This document shows positions 12,081-17,768 of a stretch of 31,034 nucleotides of DNA, piece after piece. The number at the start of each line of letters is the position of its first letter. Positions within the stretch are counted from its first letter, which is position 1. The notes beneath the pieces were generated by a model, which saw only the letters and a list, made by a program, of their open reading frames with translations, made no database searches and was not told the origin of the DNA. The position numbers and the translations under genes are program-made. Source of the stretch: a virus; IMG/VR virus record IMGVR_UViG_3300027784_000020, positions 1-31,034 of that record; one strand, 5' to 3'.

Positions 12081-12138
12081 TTATGGTATATATTTCTATA
12101 ATCTAGGGGGAAAAGAGGGGTTTTAATAATCTGACTAA

Positions 12139-12158
12139 TATATACACGCGCGCGCGTA
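12139..12158. repeat. Alternating purine-pyrimidine (CG)n tract 1
   Basis: Twenty bases of strict pyrimidine-purine alternation with five CG steps, including the 12-bp palindrome ACGCGCGCGCGT (12146-12157). Fifteen bases (12140-12154) recur exactly at 12373-12387. Such tracts can adopt Z-form DNA under negative supercoiling. Confidence 0.8.
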
Positions 12159-12296
12159 AGAGAAAGTAAAAACTGAGCAGTAATTATTTGATTATTAAGA
12201 CCCCTCCACTTTACTGTTATGGTAAGGATTAGAGGGCAATAATTACTGATTATTGCTAATTATTTAAAATACTTATAACCACTGTTATGATAGGGC

Positions 12297-12305
12297 TTAT
12301 CCACT
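12297..12305 (+). promoter_or_regulatory. DnaA-box-like site
   Basis: TTATCCACT differs from the bacterial DnaA box TTATCCACA at the last base. Only one good match is visible, so on its own it is weak evidence; it is listed because of the surrounding repeats and AT-rich DNA. Confidence 0.35.
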
Positions 12306-12372
12306 CTATTTTAGTAATTATTATGCTTATCGGAACGAACAGGTGCTGCGTTTTTTTGAGAAAAAAGAAAAA

Positions 12373-12394
12373 ATATACACGCGCGCGTGTATAT
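12373..12394. repeat. Perfect 22-bp palindrome with (CG)n core
   Basis: ATATACAC-GCGCGC-GTGTATAT reads identically on both strands and is alternating purine-pyrimidine throughout. It can form a cruciform, a Z-DNA tract or a binding site for a dimeric protein. The left 15 bases are the direct repeat of the tract at 12140-12154. Confidence 0.9.
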
Positions 12395-12433
12395 AAAGGC
12401 TATTTGTTTATTGCGGATATAGTGGGGCTGATT

Positions 12434-12462
12434 TTGCGGAAGATATAGAATTGTGCTACAAT
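12434..12462 (+). promoter_or_regulatory. Extended -10 promoter for the modification/late genes
   Basis: TTGCGG (12434-12439), 17 bases, TACAAT (12457-12462), with TG one base before the -10 (TGCTACAAT). It sits 20 bases before the ribosome binding site AGGAGGGG of the ParB gene at 12483. It is the only good promoter seen before the cassette and the packaging genes. Confidence 0.65.
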
Positions 12463-12482
12463 AATCTTATAGGAGGGGAATT

Positions 12483-13271
12483 ATGGAGCTTTACGATAAG
12501 GTTGAAAAGGTTGCGGTTGATGAGCTAATTCCTTATTATAATAACCCGAAAGAACACCCGGAGGAGCAGGTTGATAAAATTGCAAGCTCTATTAAGCACT
12601 ATGGGTTTACACAGCCGATTGTTATTAGTGATGATAATGAAATAATAATAGGGCATGGCCGAGTTCAAGCCGGGAAAAAACTGGGGCTTGAAGAGGTGCC
12701 GGCGATTGTGAGGGATGATTTAACTGACGCTGAGATGAGGGCGCTGAGAATTGCGGATAATAAAGTTGCTGAAAGTGGCTGGGATATGGAAAGGCTTTCT
12801 GCTGAGCTGGAAGCGCTTGATGTGGAGGAGCTTGAGCTGGGGTTTGAAGTTGGAGCTGTCGAGGAAATTTTAGAGGATGAGATGGAACAGTCTATATATA
12901 CTGATAAGGTGTCATCTCCGCAGTATAAGCCGATAGGTTATGAGCCGGAGATTGTTGATTTGATGGACACTGAGAGGTTTGAAAGTCTTTTGAAGAAGGT
13001 TGAGGATAGTGAGGTGGAGGAAAAAGAGAAGGAATTTTTAAGGATGGCGTGCTACCGGCACGTTATTTTTGATTATGAGGAGATTGCAGAATATTATTGT
13101 CATGCTGATAGTGAGATGCAGGAGCTTATGGAAGATTTGGCTTTGGTTATTATAGATTTTGAGAAGGCGATTGAGCAGGGTTTTGCTGAGTTCAACGAGA
13201 ATGTTTTAGGGAAGAGGGCTGAGGAAGAGGCTGGGGATAATGATGAGGCTGGGGATAATGATGAGGGATGA
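12483..13271 (+). CDS. ParB/Srx-domain protein 1 (262 aa)
   Basis: Residues about 6-95 are a ParB N-terminal (ParB/Srx) domain. VDELIPYYNNP opens it, and IIIGHGRVQAGKKLGL (GHGR at 57-60) corresponds to ParB box II, the nucleotide-binding loop. DLTDAEMRALRIADNKVAESGW is the usual extension in phage ParB proteins. Residues 145-240 form a second helical domain (EKEFLRMACYRHVIFDYEEIAEYY and an ALVIIDFEKAIEQG stretch) lacking in the paralogue at 14138. The ATG follows AGGAGGGG. The family includes CTP-binding partition proteins, nucleases and small-molecule or DNA kinases. With a glycosyltransferase and radical SAM enzyme downstream, a role in DNA modification is inferred. The last codons carry an 18-bp tandem duplication. 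Confidence 0.85.
   Translation: MELYDKVEKVAVDELIPYYNNPKEHPEEQVDKIASSIKHYGFTQPIVISDDNEIIIGHGRVQAGKKLGLEEVPAIVRDDLTDAEMRALRIADNKVAESGWDMERLSAELEALDVEELELGFEVGAVEEILEDEMEQSIYTDKVSSPQYKPIGYEPEIVDLMDTERFESLLKKVEDSEVEEKEKEFLRMACYRHVIFDYEEIAEYYCHADSEMQELMEDLALVIIDFEKAIEQGFAEFNENVLGKRAEEEAGDNDEAGDNDEG
13227..13262 (+). repeat. 18-bp tandem duplication at a gene junction
   Basis: GAGGCTGGGGATAATGAT occurs twice in direct succession (13227-13244 and 13245-13262). It encodes the acidic repeat EAGDND twice at the ParB C-terminus, and its second copy supplies the start codon region of the glycosyltransferase-like gene. Confidence 0.9.
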
Positions 13272-14118
13272 TTTTGGTATCTTTATTTTCAGCCACGGGA
13301 GAGCGGGAAGGGTTAATACGGTAAAGACGCTAGAGAAAAGTGGATATACTGGCAAATGGTATATCGTTGTTGATGATGAGGATGATGAGCTAGGTGATTA
13401 TATCGCAGAATATGGCCGGGAGAAAATTATTGTTTTCAATAAGGATGAGGTCGCAGAGTGGATTGATAGGGGCGATAATTTCCGGAATAAAAATATTGTC
13501 CTTTATGCGAGGAATAAGAGCTGGGAATTGGCTGAAGAGCTGGGGCTGAAATATTTTATGCAGTTTGATGATGATTATACCGGCTTTTATTATAGGTTTA
13601 AGCCTAATTATCAATATGATAAGAAAGCTCCGAAGCTGGAGTGCTTGGATTTTCTTTTCAATGAGATGATTAAATTTCTTGAGAAGTCAGGTGCAACTAC
13701 GGTAGCGTTATCTCAGGGCGGGGATTTTATCGGTGGTGAGGAATCGTCTTTTGCCGATAAGCCGAAGATTAAGAGGAAAGCTATGAATACGTTTTTGTGT
13801 TCTGTGGATAATCCTTTCTATTTTATGGGGTCTATAAACGAAGATGTAACGGCTTATGTTCGGCTTCAGCAGTTGGGGGAGCTTATGTTTACTGTTAATA
13901 CTGCTAGTGTTGAGCAGAGGTCTACACAGCAGAGTGAGGGGGGCTTGACGGAGATTTACTTGGATAAGGGTACGTATGTTAAGAGTTTTTATACTATATT
14001 ATATGCTCCCTCTTGTGTTCGGCTTACTTTGATGGGTAATAAGTATAAGAGGATACATCACTTGATTAAGTGGAGGAATGCTGTTCCGCAGATAGTCGAT
14101 GAGAAACATAAAAAATAA
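13261..14118 (+). CDS. TAGT-like (TET-associated) glycosyltransferase
   Basis: This 285-residue protein has a GT-A-like layout. The N-terminal strand IFIFSHGRAGRVNT (7-20) has the S-x-GR-x-GR nucleotide-sugar loop typical of phage TET-associated glycosyltransferases. VVDDEDDE (36-43) and KYFMQFDDDYTGF (98-109, D103-D105 as the metal-binding DxD) follow, with YFMGSINEDVTAYVRL further on. TAGT-type enzymes are predicted or shown to attach sugars to hydroxymethylpyrimidines in phage DNA. I chose ATG 13261 over 13258 for spacing from GGGG; it overlaps ParB 1 by 11 bases. The window has no TET/JBP dioxygenase or hydroxymethylase, so the acceptor is unknown. Confidence 0.7.
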   Translation: MRDDFGIFIFSHGRAGRVNTVKTLEKSGYTGKWYIVVDDEDDELGDYIAEYGREKIIVFNKDEVAEWIDRGDNFRNKNIVLYARNKSWELAEELGLKYFMQFDDDYTGFYYRFKPNYQYDKKAPKLECLDFLFNEMIKFLEKSGATTVALSQGGDFIGGEESSFADKPKIKRKAMNTFLCSVDNPFYFMGSINEDVTAYVRLQQLGELMFTVNTASVEQRSTQQSEGGLTEIYLDKGTYVKSFYTILYAPSCVRLTLMGNKYKRIHHLIKWRNAVPQIVDEKHKK

Positions 14119-14137
14119 GGAAAGGGCTTGATAGGTT

Positions 14138-14737
14138 ATGGAGCTTTACGATAAGGTCGAGAGGGCAAAGGTTGATGAGCTAATTCCTTATTATAATAAC
14201 CCGAAAGAGCATCCTGAGGAGCAGGTTGAAAAGATTGCAAGCTCAATTGAGCAGTATGGGTTTACTCAGCCTGTTGTTATTGCGGATGATAATGAAATAA
14301 TAATAGGGCATGGGCGGGTAGAGGCCGCCAAAAAGTTAGGGCTTGAAGAAGTGCCAGCTATTGTGAGGGATGATTTGTCGCTTGAGGAAATGAAGGCTTT
14401 GCGGTTGGCTGATAATAAGATAGCAGAGAGTGGCTGGAATATGGAGCAGTTAGAGGTCGAGTTAGAAACGATAGATTTTGAGGAGCTTGAAACTGGGTTT
14501 GATGAGGGGGAGATTGGGGAGATTCTTGAAGAGATAGATTTTATAGATAACAGCCTTCAGGAAGATGACCGGGGAAGTCGGACTGGGGTTGGAAAGGGGA
14601 GTATGGTAGTTTCAATTGGAACTTTGAGCGAGGTTTTGGAATATGATTTAGTGCAAGAAGTTATGAATAAAATTGAGGAGAAGTTTGAAGAAGATAAAAT
14701 AAGGCAGTTCATGGAGTGGTTTTTAAATGAAGGTTAA
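14138..14737 (+). CDS. ParB/Srx-domain protein 2 (199 aa)
   Basis: The first 140 residues are a close paralogue of the protein at 12483, with the same MELYDKVE start, NNPKEHPEEQV segment and IIIGHGRVEAAKKLGL box II. The DNA is also highly similar over roughly the first 250 bases, pointing to recent duplication. The last 60 residues differ: the helical domain of copy 1 is replaced by a short unrelated tail containing GVGKGSMVVSIGT. The stop overlaps the radical SAM start by 11 bases. Copy 2 may keep only the nucleotide-binding function, or the two may form heterodimers; this is inference. Confidence 0.85.
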   Translation: MELYDKVERAKVDELIPYYNNPKEHPEEQVEKIASSIEQYGFTQPVVIADDNEIIIGHGRVEAAKKLGLEEVPAIVRDDLSLEEMKALRLADNKIAESGWNMEQLEVELETIDFEELETGFDEGEIGEILEEIDFIDNSLQEDDRGSRTGVGKGSMVVSIGTLSEVLEYDLVQEVMNKIEEKFEEDKIRQFMEWFLNEG

Positions 14738-15968
14738 GGTTGTTGGTGGTGAGGGGTCTATTAATCTTTATTCTCTGGCAGTAATAGAGAATAAATTGAA
14801 AAAGGAAGGGGTCGAGCTGGTAGAGGATATTAGCAATGCTGATTTTCTTTTTTTGTCTGTCTGCGACCCTACGGAAATTTCTATGGTTAAAAAGGAGTCG
14901 GCTCAAGCGGAGGAGTTTTCTGTTCCTGTTGTTATGGGTGGATTTGAAAGTTTTTTTGCTATTCCATATTTTGCTTGGGTCGACTATGTTGTGGTGGGGG
15001 AGGGCTTTGATTTTTTTGAGGCTTTTGCAGAATCTCCAGAGAAGGCTTTTGCTTTGGATTGTGTTATGTCCTCGCCGGAAGATACTGTTTATCCTAATTA
15101 TAATATCCACTTTAAGGAGATGCCCTTACTAAAGGTGCCGGGCCGAAATAGGTTTTATTATCTTGCGGGGAAAGGGTGTAAGGGGAAGTGTAAGTTTTGT
15201 GGCACATCTTGGGTTCAACCACATCAAGAAAATAGCAAGTATCGTGTAAAAAGAATTTTGCGGAAGGTAGAGGATAAGCCGTGGGGGAAAATAAATTTAA
15301 TTTCCAACGATAGTGGTTTGGTTTATGAATCTAAAGCGATTAATGCGCAGAGTTGCAGGGTTAGTGATTATTTGCGAAGGCCTGATAGATATAAATCTAA
15401 CATGCTTCATTTTGGAATTGAGGCTTGGACGGAGGGGAGGAGAAAAGAATGGGGGAAGCCGGTTTCTCCTAAGGAGATTATAGAGCTTTTAAAAAAGACA
15501 AAGGAAAAGAAGCAAGAGTGTGAGTTGTTTTTTATTGTTAGTTATAAAGACTGGAGCTTGGAAAAGGTTGAAAGGTTTGCGGAAGAGTGCCTTATTCCTG
15601 ATGCTGATAAGTCGCCGAGGGTTTTTGTTAAGCTGACTTATTTCGACCCTGTTCCGCACACTCCTCTGGGGGATGAGAAGATAGAGCTAAGTTATTGCGA
15701 CCCGGAAGAGGTTTTTAAAATTTTAAATAGCAGAAATAAAAGGGTTAGGGTCTTTCCTACTAGGTCTATGGCAAGAACTGCTTGGAGGGGTGTTTTTCAT
15801 AGGTGTAAGCCAGAGGAGGCAAAGAGGCTGGGAGCTGAGCCGAGTGATACGAATAAAGCCGGGTCTTTTTCTGACTTTAAGGAACATTTACGAGCGGAGG
15901 GGCTGTTGTATAGGCTGGAAAAAACGAACGATTATTATGAGAATATAAAAGCGAGAATAAGTCTTTAA
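14727..15968 (+). CDS. Radical SAM enzyme with B12-binding-like N-terminal region
   Basis: The cluster motif C-x3-C-x2-C is at C151, C155 and C158 (GCKGKCKFCGTSW), preceded by an N-terminal 130-residue Rossmann-like part. That part (MKVKVVGGEG, then FLFLSVCDPTE, VVMGGFES and YVVVGEG) resembles the cobalamin-binding or MiaB-like domain of many radical SAM enzymes. Further TIM-barrel strands are visible (INLISNDSG, LHFGIEAW, ELFFIVSYKDW). The length (413 aa) is typical. The enzyme should use SAM and a 4Fe-4S cluster to start radical chemistry; the substrate is unknown. Overlap with ParB 2 and operon position suggest it works with the glycosyltransferase, possibly on a DNA base. Confidence 0.85.
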   Translation: MKVKVVGGEGSINLYSLAVIENKLKKEGVELVEDISNADFLFLSVCDPTEISMVKKESAQAEEFSVPVVMGGFESFFAIPYFAWVDYVVVGEGFDFFEAFAESPEKAFALDCVMSSPEDTVYPNYNIHFKEMPLLKVPGRNRFYYLAGKGCKGKCKFCGTSWVQPHQENSKYRVKRILRKVEDKPWGKINLISNDSGLVYESKAINAQSCRVSDYLRRPDRYKSNMLHFGIEAWTEGRRKEWGKPVSPKEIIELLKKTKEKKQECELFFIVSYKDWSLEKVERFAEECLIPDADKSPRVFVKLTYFDPVPHTPLGDEKIELSYCDPEEVFKILNSRNKRVRVFPTRSMARTAWRGVFHRCKPEEAKRLGAEPSDTNKAGSFSDFKEHLRAEGLLYRLEKTNDYYENIKARISL

Positions 15969-16000: not shown

Positions 16001-16504
16001 ATGGCACAATATCCGTGGGATGAAATTAAAACAAAATACGAAACTGGGAAATATAGTATAAGGCAGTTGGCTGATAAGTACGGGTTTAATGCCAGCTATG
16101 GCCGCCGTAAAGCTAAAGAAAATAACTGGGTTAAAGGAAAGAGTAGCAAAAAGGTAACAGAAAAAGTTAACAAAAAAGTAATTGAAGAAGAAGCAGAGAA
16201 AGAAGCAAAGCTCCGGCAGGAGTATGAAAAGATAATAACGAATATAAGGCGTGGAGCTTATCAGGCTTTGATGCAGGAGCAGAGTTTTGATAGGTTGAAA
16301 CAGTTTAAGATTGCTTCCCAGATTATTCGCAATTGCAGGAAGGAGCAGTGGGAGGTTAACCAGATTACAGAAACTGCTGAGAAGGTAGAGCAGGAGCTTT
16401 ATGGAAAAGGGGGTGGGCCAATTGAGTTTGACGGCGACCCAAAAGAAAGGCTCAAAAGAGCTATTAACAGAATTGCCGAAAGAGAGAAGGGAGAAAGCGA
16501 TTGA
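16001..16504 (+). CDS. Terminase small subunit
   Basis: Residues about 1-45 form a helix-turn-helix (IKTKYETGKYSIRQLADKYG followed by ASYGRRKAKENNW), the DNA-recognition part of phage small terminases. A charged helical middle (IEEEAEKEAKLRQEYEKI) serves oligomerisation, and the C-terminus is basic. The 167-residue length fits the family. It recognises the packaging site and recruits the large subunit, whose gene overlaps its 3' end. The ATG is preceded by TTAGGTGGTGATTAATA. Identification rests on domain layout plus position. Confidence 0.8.
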   Translation: MAQYPWDEIKTKYETGKYSIRQLADKYGFNASYGRRKAKENNWVKGKSSKKVTEKVNKKVIEEEAEKEAKLRQEYEKIITNIRRGAYQALMQEQSFDRLKQFKIASQIIRNCRKEQWEVNQITETAEKVEQELYGKGGGPIEFDGDPKERLKRAINRIAEREKGESD

Positions 16505-17768
16505 TAATTTGTCTGACGAGGAGGCTTTAAGCCTTCTGTATGATTGGGATTTCTGGGCGAGGGAGGGTCAGCTCCCTCCGCAGACTGACTGGCAAAACTG
16601 GTTGTTGCTTGCGGGGAGGGGGTATGGGAAAACTCGCACCGGAGCAGAGATGGTTAGAAAATGGGTTGATGAAGGAGTTAAAAGGATTGCTCTGGTTGCT
16701 GAAACCCCGGCTGATGCCCGCGATATAATGATAGAGGGGGAGAGTGGGCTGTTGAATATTTTTCCTCCTTGGAATGAGCCTCATTATGAATCATCTAAAA
16801 GGCGTATTACTTGGAATAGCGGAGCGATGGCGACTGTTTACTCTGGATATAAGCCCGACCAGCTGAGGGGGCCACAGCACGAGAAGGCGTGGGCTGATGA
16901 GCTTGCAAGCTGGAGGTATCCCCGGGAGACTTGGGATAATCTTATGTTCGGTATGCGTTTGGGTGAGAATCCACAGAGTGTTATTACTACCACCCCGCGC
17001 CCGTTATCTTTGCTGAAAGAGCTTATTGAAGATGAGGATACTGTGGTTACGAGAGGAACAACTTATGACAATATACAAAATTTACCAGAGCCTTTTTATA
17101 AGCGTATTATTAGTAAATATGAAGGTACTAGGCTGGGGAGGCAGGAGCTTTATGCGGAGATTCTGTCCGATAATCCCGGAGCATTGTGGAATTATGAGAT
17201 TATTCAGCACGTAAAAACTCATCCATCTTTGAAGAGGATTGTGGTTGCTATTGACCCGGAGGCTGAGAATAATCCTAATTCTAGTGAGACGGGAATTGTA
17301 GCGGGAGGCGTTGGAGTTGATGGTTATGGTTATGTGCTGGCCGACAAGTCGGTAAAAGCAAGCCCTAACGGCTGGGCACAGCGAGCTGTTGATTTATATG
17401 ATAGGTTAAGTGCGGACAGGATAGTTGGTGAGGTTAATCAGGGAGGAGAAATGGTTGAAGCCGTAATTCGCAGTGTTGACGGTGGGGGGAATATATCATA
17501 CAATAAGGTTAGAGCATCTAGGGGGAAGAAAACGAGGGCTGAGCCGGTTGCAAGTTTGTATGAGCAGGGGAAGGTGTTTCATGTCGGGCAGTTTCCTGAG
17601 CTTGAAGACCAGCTAACCACTTGGGAGCCGGGCAAGAAAAGCCCTGACCGTTTGGATGCTCTCGTGTGGTTAATCACAGAGTTAATGCTTGGAGAAAAAG
17701 AATACGGAGATATTGGGGATATGGAAGCGGTTGGGCAGGCACGAGCAAGTTCAGCAAGTCAATGGTAA
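16401..17768 (+). CDS. Terminase large subunit
   Basis: ATPase: GRGYGKTRTG (Walker A, 72-81) and KAWADELASW (Walker B with catalytic Glu, 162-171), preceded by the family phrase LSDEEALSLLYDWDFWAR and LLLAG. The RNase H-like nuclease follows (IVVAIDPEA, then an acidic GEVNQGGEMV strand and SPDRLDALVW near the end). It packages DNA into proheads and cuts concatemers. Start: ATG 16401 has AGGAG 5 bases upstream; TTG 16422 after AAGGGGGTGG is an alternative. Starts after about 16475 would cut the conserved LPKERREKAIDNL segment. The 104-base overlap with the small subunit is unusually long. Confidence 0.92.
   Translation: MEKGVGQLSLTATQKKGSKELLTELPKERREKAIDNLSDEEALSLLYDWDFWAREGQLPPQTDWQNWLLLAGRGYGKTRTGAEMVRKWVDEGVKRIALVAETPADARDIMIEGESGLLNIFPPWNEPHYESSKRRITWNSGAMATVYSGYKPDQLRGPQHEKAWADELASWRYPRETWDNLMFGMRLGENPQSVITTTPRPLSLLKELIEDEDTVVTRGTTYDNIQNLPEPFYKRIISKYEGTRLGRQELYAEILSDNPGALWNYEIIQHVKTHPSLKRIVVAIDPEAENNPNSSETGIVAGGVGVDGYGYVLADKSVKASPNGWAQRAVDLYDRLSADRIVGEVNQGGEMVEAVIRSVDGGGNISYNKVRASRGKKTRAEPVASLYEQGKVFHVGQFPELEDQLTTWEPGKKSPDRLDALVWLITELMLGEKEYGDIGDMEAVGQARASSASQW

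Follow-up and report, generated by a model that had tools for sequence, protein, structure and literature searches.

The virus DNA analysed here, referred to as the window (IMG/VR record IMGVR_UViG_3300027784_000020, positions 1 to 31,034; 31,034 nucleotides), carries four genes directly upstream of the terminase genes, in the order ParB1, TET-associated glycosyltransferase (TAGT), ParB2 and radical SAM enzyme (Table 1). The arrangement raises the question of what joins two ParB-like proteins to these two enzymes, and on which substrate the enzymes act. By analogy with related loci, the most likely answer is that two enzymes with ParB partners decorate the virus DNA.

Gene order and modules

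The gene order, the coordinates, the motifs and the two 11-base overlaps described in an earlier, sequence-only reading were confirmed by profile searches and a re-check of the sequence. Both overlaps are exact (ParB1/TAGT, 13261–13271; ParB2/radical SAM, 14727–14737), and gaps of 19 nt and 32 nt separate TAGT from ParB2 and the radical SAM gene from terS. The start of the TAGT gene is placed at 13261, while the mechanical ORF opens at 13240. The identification of the TAGT was borne out by comparison with the Pfam TAGT profile (E 3.5e-36, 125.5 bits, cut-off 27.5) and with its PHROG (E 1.9e-77), and that of the radical SAM enzyme by a match to PF04055 above the cut-off (31.5 bits against 29.5, E 2.4e-7) and by the CxxxCxxC cysteines, which are invariant in 12 of 12 relatives.

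Table 1. Features of the cassette and its surroundings in the window.
Feature	Position	Strand	Description
Gap before cassette	12081..12482	none	402 nt, longest non-coding stretch of the window; two CG-repeat palindromic sites
ParB1	12483..13271	+	ParB N domain (~codons 1-121) and P1C (~residues 139-240); TAGT partner
P1C coding stretch	12897..13205	+	Conserved TAGT partner; separate gene in some phages
TAGT	13261..14118	+	GT-A type glycosyltransferase; PF20691, phrog_842
ParB2	14138..14737	+	ParB N domain and radical-SAM-partner tail, ~78 residues
Radical SAM enzyme	14727..15968	+	CxxxCxxC; N-terminal Rossmann domain of cobalamin/methylthiotransferase type; rare virus-borne family
Terminase small subunit (terS)	16001..16504	+	phrog_1206, E 3.2e-10; packaging block starts here
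Terminase large subunit	16401..17768	+	PF03237 E 4.1e-25; PF17289 E 1.1e-11

The cassette consists of two separable two-gene modules, ParB-TAGT and ParB-radical SAM. The former pair recurs in viruses of archaea, Escherichia, Lactobacillus, Nocardia and Porphyromonas, and the latter in metagenomic viruses; since both recur across viruses, the pairing of the genes is not due to chance. One other virus lineage, L006, has the whole cassette, plus a ParB gene paired with a C5-methyltransferase (C5-MTase) gene. The ParB census and the TAGT set, with 80 loci each, comprise the nearest relatives among the matches listed, and therefore the proportions given below are not population frequencies.

The glycosyltransferase and its P1C partner

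The window TAGT contains the motifs SHGRAGR and FDDDY. Arg14, Asp104 and Asp105 are invariant in all 15 TAGTs compared, the two aspartates forming the acidic metal/nucleotide-sugar motif. Sequence searches of solved structures with this protein gave no match. The conserved Asp pair and the Pfam family are shared with the beta-glucosyl-HMC-alpha-glucosyltransferase of phage T6, a TAGT with a predicted GT-A fold (PMC13216743). For the window TAGT, by contrast, no alpha/beta-GT or hydroxymethylase partner was found, and P1C is constant upstream of its family members examined here; T-even phages were missing among the tblastn matches to it. It fits the group of solitary TAGTs of undefined function described from 288 of 753 GT-bearing phage genomes in PMC13216743, a paper in which ParB goes unmentioned.

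P1C is the C-terminal half of ParB1, about 100 residues long, with no significant Pfam match. Among the matches listed, the gene directly upstream of TAGT encodes P1C in 97 of 97 assessable loci, in 83 of which it is fused to ParB; the most distant TAGT examined (~26% identity) is also preceded by P1C (E 1.4e-14). Judging by these comparisons, P1C appears to be an undescribed domain and a conserved partner of TAGT. The P1C-TAGT pair is also found without ParB, among other genes, away from head genes and near replication-type genes, so TAGT can do without ParB. The ParB-TAGT module is widespread and is carried by cultured viruses such as HHTV-2 and the Lactobacillus phages phi jlb1 and c5; the radical SAM gene is missing from most TAGT loci among the matches listed.

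The radical SAM enzyme

In 12 of 12 assessable virus contigs (~8 lineages), the gene immediately before that of the radical SAM enzyme encodes a ParB; none of the four radical SAM proteins checked that fall outside the family (L113, L202-L204) has such a neighbour. In eight loci (L100, L102, L103, L107, L108, L111, L199 and L201; ~6 lineages) the fetched stretch contains the ParB-radical SAM pair and no TAGT. The enzyme has no PHROG match, and a pattern-based search of 84,980 prokaryote species, which distant relatives could escape, yielded no confirmed relative. Isolated phages gave no match to the radical SAM proteins of the window or L100, and only distant cobalamin-type proteins with that of L107; plasmids contained no relative when the L102 protein was the query. 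To our knowledge, the ParB-radical SAM gene pair is rare among viruses and previously undescribed.

Sequence searches of solved structures gave only weak matches. The structural model (mean pLDDT 71, core poorly resolved) had MgmA as its top Foldseek match (E 5.8e-12), with TsrM and OxsB also found. An N-terminal Rossmann-like domain followed by a radical SAM core is common to the window protein and to MgmA, TsrM, OxsB, TokK and MiaB/RimO, but it is only 12-18% identical to these cobalamin-type and MiaB/RimO enzymes. The B12-binding profile PF02310 scored 14.8 bits, below its cut-off of 32.1. A methylthiotransferase was rejected (TIGR00089 17.4 bits against 251): MiaB/RimO have three conserved N-terminal cysteines, whereas the window family has no invariant N-terminal cysteine.

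Two chimeric ParB proteins

Both ParBs match ParB_N (PF02195, cut-off 26.3 bits), ParB1 with E 7.1e-12 (45.6 bits) and ParB2 with E 6.1e-11 (42.7 bits), and the folds nearest to the AlphaFold2 model of ParB1 (mean pLDDT 83.8) are the solved ones of Noc and ParB-CDP. GHGR is present in both, at the P-motif (box II) of the ParB CTPase/NTPase switch; among 43 relatives of ParB1 the GxxR arginine is kept in 38 and replaced by Thr in 5, L006 being one of the latter. A canonical partition ParB (ParABS) was rejected, since both proteins fell short of the TIGR00180 cut-off of 58.45 bits, at 44.6 and 43.9. In place of the canonical HTH/dimerisation domains, ParB1 ends in P1C and ParB2 in the tail characteristic of radical SAM partners. 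It seems that the ParBs are partner or adaptor subunits rather than successive catalysts.

ParB1 and ParB2 are alike over the first ~121 codons only, and their tails are unrelated, which the sequence-only reading had overlooked. In both the window and L006, the DNA similarity between the two genes stops at nt 363-365. The two N domains are 80.0% identical in amino acids in the window (best other, 64.6%) and 97.6% in L006 (best other, 70.5%), and the N-domain tree places them as sisters within each cassette virus, with support of 100/95 (window) and 100/97 (L006). Meanwhile, the ParB2 tail groups with those of other radical-SAM partners: a profile built without it recognises it with E 3.1e-5, against 0.0089 for the next unrelated match. 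The ParBs are chimeric, with sister N domains and tails that follow the enzyme, and the same chimera occurs in two distant viruses; the sequences suggest a shared module set on private docks. Homogenised N domains as a general rule within a phage were rejected, being found in none of six other double-ParB loci.

These data bear on a minor but appreciable possibility, that two independent modules serving different modified bases merely stand side by side, and that the likeness of their ParBs comes only from a recent tandem duplication. The occurrence of each module alone, in most TAGT loci and in the eight radical SAM loci above, speaks for it. A plain duplication of ParB1 fails to explain ParB2, however, because its tail and its N domain have different kin, and the chimera arose in two distant viruses.

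Neighbours of related ParB genes

ParB is already known in base-modification loci. Genes for several kinds of DNA-modifying enzymes accompany ParBs similar to those of the window: Mom follows in at least five loci, a DpdA-like transglycosylase in L153 and L166, an N6/N4 MTase is fused in L124 and separate in L165 and L171, and the C5-MTase is preceded by such a ParB in L006. Because similar ParBs precede these genes, DNA is the likely substrate of the cassette, and the DNA-modification role proposed from the sequence gains support by comparison. Mom and DpdA can each follow a related ParB gene, as the window enzymes do, but their chemistry differs, and neither is homologous to the TAGT or the radical SAM enzyme. 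HNH and AAA/GNAT genes are also found downstream of such ParBs. A literature search found no paper on the restriction behaviour of the DNA of these phages.

Phage ParB-methyltransferase fusions (N6_N4 MTase; PMC12704722) have the ParB N domain family in common with the window, where, by contrast, the ParBs are separate genes with the TAGT and the radical SAM enzyme as partners; that survey of the fold mentions neither a glycosyltransferase nor radical SAM. In the loci of cytosine carboxymethylation by CmoX/CmoY, as in L006, a ParBc, with its function stated as unknown, stands beside a C5 enzyme (PMC12783734). The CmoX/CmoA route was rejected for L006: its C5-MTase carries the SPPC motif but has, by our reading of the GxSV motif, Met where CmoX has Arg350, and CmoA was not found in 14 records.

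It is improbable that the substrate is something other than DNA, in which case the TAGT would glycosylate RNA or a protein, of the capsid or otherwise, and a peptide would be the target of the radical SAM enzyme. MgmA, the top structural match, methylates protein glutamine; the cassette adjoins head genes, and no acceptor-making enzyme was found. Against these points stand the pairing or fusion of similar ParBs with known kinds of DNA-modifying enzymes and the P1C-TAGT pairs located away from head genes. A role of the ParBs in packaging or host takeover as nucleases or nicking enzymes, with the two other enzymes as unrelated passengers, is very improbable given the strict association of the gene pairs and the tails that track the enzyme. 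It would agree with the nicking of DNA reported for the ParB-methylase Bce_0392 (cited in PMC5512222) and with lone ParBs next to terminases, as in Rhodobacter phage RcOceanus, where no modification enzyme adjoins.

The acceptor

All TAGT acceptors known to us carry a hydroxyl. The sequence-only reading had noted the lack of a TET/JBP or hydroxymethylase gene in the window, leaving a supply from elsewhere or a new route. In the window, itself a fragment, no TET, hydroxymethylase or C5-MTase was found, the TET search having no positive control. Across homologous loci, many of them fragments, this held for TET/JBP (0 of 38 records, with no control genome matching either) and less strictly for thymidylate synthase/hydroxymethylase (PF00303, 2 of 32 records); C5-MTase occurred in 1 of 38. 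None of these enzymes is general across the records searched, and a TET-type acceptor is not indicated.

Proposed mechanism

It is somewhat probable that the locus is a late phage DNA-modification cassette of two interchangeable modules, with one ParB-fold partner per enzyme. ParB1 would partner the TAGT through its P1C tail, and ParB2 the radical SAM enzyme through its different tail. The similar N domains, a nucleotide-binding fold with conserved GHGR and without a helix-turn-helix, may direct the two enzymes to one common address on phage DNA or load them in one clamp-like manner, so that both would reach the same DNA molecules, plausibly shortly before packaging by the adjacent terminase. 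The TAGT would glycosylate a base. The contribution of the radical SAM enzyme would be a carbon-centred change, made either to the base or to the sugar attached to it; the chemistry, the order and the purpose, including the protection before packaging proposed in the sequence-only reading, are guesses.

Successive action of the enzymes on a single base is not supported as it was put forward: the four genes form two separable modules with adaptor-like ParBs, and sequential action is therefore only one option. A rather unlikely form of it is a TET-free route to glycosylated DNA, in which ParB2 guides the radical SAM enzyme to functionalise a base, ParB1 guides the TAGT to glycosylate what results, and the shared ParB domain co-targets both. 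The position attacked could be, for example, the methyl group of 5-methylcytosine, with a C5-MTase as a third enzyme under ParB guidance supplying that base, a step suggested by the gene order of L006.

The role of solitary phage TAGTs is left open in PMC13216743, and that of ParBc beside DNA-modifying enzymes in PMC12783734. The comparison offers a handle on both, through P1C, the ParB-radical SAM pair absent from PHROG, and the chimeric ParBs, which suggest a design of shared address and private dock. If the proposal is true, phages would have in ParB proteins a general means of delivering DNA-modifying enzymes, and the radical SAM partner would open a new way into DNA hypermodification. Because ParB-TAGT occurs in cultured viruses, half of the proposal is testable by ordinary nucleoside analysis.

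Palindromes upstream of ParB1

The two CG-repeat palindromic sites in the gap before ParB1, 12137-12158 and 12373-12394, are related, and the second is a perfect 22-bp palindrome, ATATACACGCGCGCGTGTATAT. As a general feature 5' of ParB such palindromes were rejected, none being found upstream of the cassette genes in L006, L015, L016 and L018. A motif search of the window found the motif confined to this gap, with 5 matches against 0.09 expected, and the sites are a candidate operator or ParB-binding site.

The ParB–Enzyme Cassette

The window is a linear IMG/VR record of 31,034 bases, probably a fragment of a virus genome. The four-gene set of the sequence-only reading, namely ParB1, a TET-associated glycosyltransferase (TAGT), ParB2 and a radical SAM protein in that order, was borne out by gene calls and profile matches, as were the 11-base overlaps, one within each ParB–enzyme pair; 19 nt separate the pairs. 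The genes of the terminase small and large subunits (terS, then terL) and of a Mu-type portal follow on the 3′ side. The window's longest non-coding gap precedes ParB1 and contains a pair of palindromic sites with CG repeats, spaced by 233 nt, one of them a perfect 22-bp palindrome ~90 nt 5′ of ParB1; their motif is absent from the rest of the window.

Coordinates of the cassette and of features in compared loci (L-numbers)
Locus	Position	Feature
Window	12081-12482	Longest non-coding gap
Window	12483-13271	ParB1
Window	13261-14118	TAGT
Window	14138-14737	ParB2
Window	14727-15968	Radical SAM
L004	2146-2994	TAGT, apparently split or shortened
L006	9295-10332	C5 enzyme
L106	182-1153	Shorter second radical SAM gene (323 aa), upstream of the ParB–radical SAM pair
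L199	3870-4841	Same
L200	2375-3346	Same
L202 (Streptomyces phage SF3)	3338-5912	Cobalamin-type radical SAM, then thymidylate kinase and NUDIX hydrolase
L195	4447-8040	ParB–Mom, then ParB and a different radical SAM (344 aa, PF04055 E 2e-9)
L119	4962-5729	P-loop ATPase 3′ of ParB
L120	4962-6071	P-loop ATPase 3′ of ParB, fused with a GNAT acetyltransferase domain (phrog_11143, of unknown function)
L173	5767-6915	S-adenosylmethionine synthetase directly 3′ of a long ParB fusion protein

Shared N Domains and Separate Tails

Across roughly 120 residues, the N domain, ParB1 and ParB2 share 80% identity, and beyond it they are unrelated; their DNA is 78.6% identical at nt 1-365 and likewise unrelated beyond. 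One further lineage (L006, L007, L110) has the order ParBa-TAGT-ParBb-radical SAM-ParBc-C5-MTase-terL, and there ParBa and ParBb are 97.5% identical at nt 1-363 and unrelated beyond. A 42-row tree pairs the two N domains within each virus as sisters (support 100/95 for the window and 100/97 for the L006 lineage). The ParB2 tail matched a profile of radical-SAM-partner tails, from which ParB2 had been left out, with an E-value of 3.1e-5, the best score of any tail neither in the profile nor duplicating a member. On these results, the N domain tracks the virus and the tail tracks the enzyme. Gene conversion or repeated N-domain replacement would produce such ParBs, and the two lineages suggest that both modules need the same N domain; sister N domains were not seen in six other double-ParB loci. 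In the proposed mechanism, the N domain would act as an address or clamp, the tail would dock the enzyme, and the TAGT or radical SAM enzyme would perform the chemistry.

The ~100-residue C-terminal half of ParB1 (P1C) had no significant Pfam match, and its predicted structure is a confident helical domain on a low-confidence linker. P1C lies directly upstream of TAGT in 97 of 97 assessable loci among the matches listed, fused to ParB in 83 and without a detectable ParB domain in 14, a few of these being truncated by contig ends. The pairing is kept in a Porphyromonas phage whose TAGT is ~26% identical. Within this branch of TAGTs, P1C is thus the invariable partner and ParB a frequent addition. 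The ParB-less P1C–TAGT pairs inspected (L012, L013, L014, L019, L081, L094, L096) lie away from the terminase, with neighbours that are partly of early or replication type. Viruses with a TAGT relative include those of Haloarcula, Escherichia, Salmonella, Lactobacillus, Nocardia and Vibrio. Apparently split or shortened genes (L004, Lactobacillus phages phiLdb and LL-Ku) suggest that TAGT function may be dispensable in some phages.

The Radical SAM Protein

The window protein narrowly exceeded the Radical_SAM profile cut-off and had no PHROG match; its three cysteines are kept across 12 relatives. Two alignment-based scans of viral sequences gave 18 loci, reduced to 12 contigs including the window (about 8 divergent lineages) by merging near-duplicates and removing two loci cut by contig edges and a weak outsider, L113. 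A ParB gene lies immediately 5′ of the radical SAM gene in all 12, overlapping it in most, with an apparently broken ParB frame in L106; terL lies 3′ in most. L113 and L202-L204, whose radical SAM proteins fall narrowly outside the family, gave no ParB match, and no relatives were confirmed in the prokaryote genome collection. The AlphaFold2 model (mean pLDDT 71) has a well-resolved N-terminal Rossmann domain and a poorly resolved core, and its Foldseek neighbours are MgmA, TsrM, OxsB, TokK and MiaB. We interpret the protein as a radical SAM enzyme of cobalamin type, or descended from that type, with cobalamin as a putative cofactor. The locus of the cultured phage SF3 is possibly a different nucleotide-modification locus.

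Partners of Related ParBs and the Probable Substrate

All counts come from nearest-relative sets with some near-duplicate rows and several short contigs. Among the best 80 loci, nearest to the window ParBs, about 45 encode a long C-terminal part; the one checked proved to be fused to an N6/N4 MTase. The genes 3′ of short ParBs encode Mom (L121, L156, L157, L169, L195), DpdA-like transglycosylase (L153, L166), N6/N4 MTase (L165, L171), TAGT (L152, L180, L197, L198) and a radical SAM protein of another type (L195), but HNH and AAA/GNAT genes also occur there. As DNA-modifying enzymes form the majority of named partners in this set, DNA would be the substrate of the cassette, by a guilt by association that is strong in number. 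In L195, the ParB with the 344-aa protein makes up a second kind of ParB–radical SAM pair, and the P-loop ATPase beside the ParBs closest to those of the window (L119, L120) is a possible further partner enzyme.

The occurrence of ParB near base-modifying enzymes is a loose theme already known. Solitary TAGTs with undefined function have been described without mention of ParB (PMC13216743); a survey of the ParB fold includes phage MTase fusions, and the terms "glycosyltransferase" and "radical SAM" are both absent from its main text (PMC12704722); and ParBc adjoining C5-carboxymethyltransferases has been called of unknown function (PMC12783734). From comparison with these works, we rate the enzyme families as known, and one gene pair and one regularity as new relative to recent literature.

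No MTase was seen in the window. Of enzymes that could make the TAGT acceptor, C5-MTase and thymidylate synthase/hydroxymethylase were almost absent from the collected records, many of which are fragments, and TET gave no match there; the TET model matched no control genome either. The L006 gene set of TAGT, radical SAM and C5-MTase hints at a possible cytosine route of methylation, next radical functionalisation and last glycosylation. The L006 C5 enzyme has the SPPC motif of carboxymethyltransferases and, by our own reading of the equivalence, Met where these have the cofactor-binding Arg.
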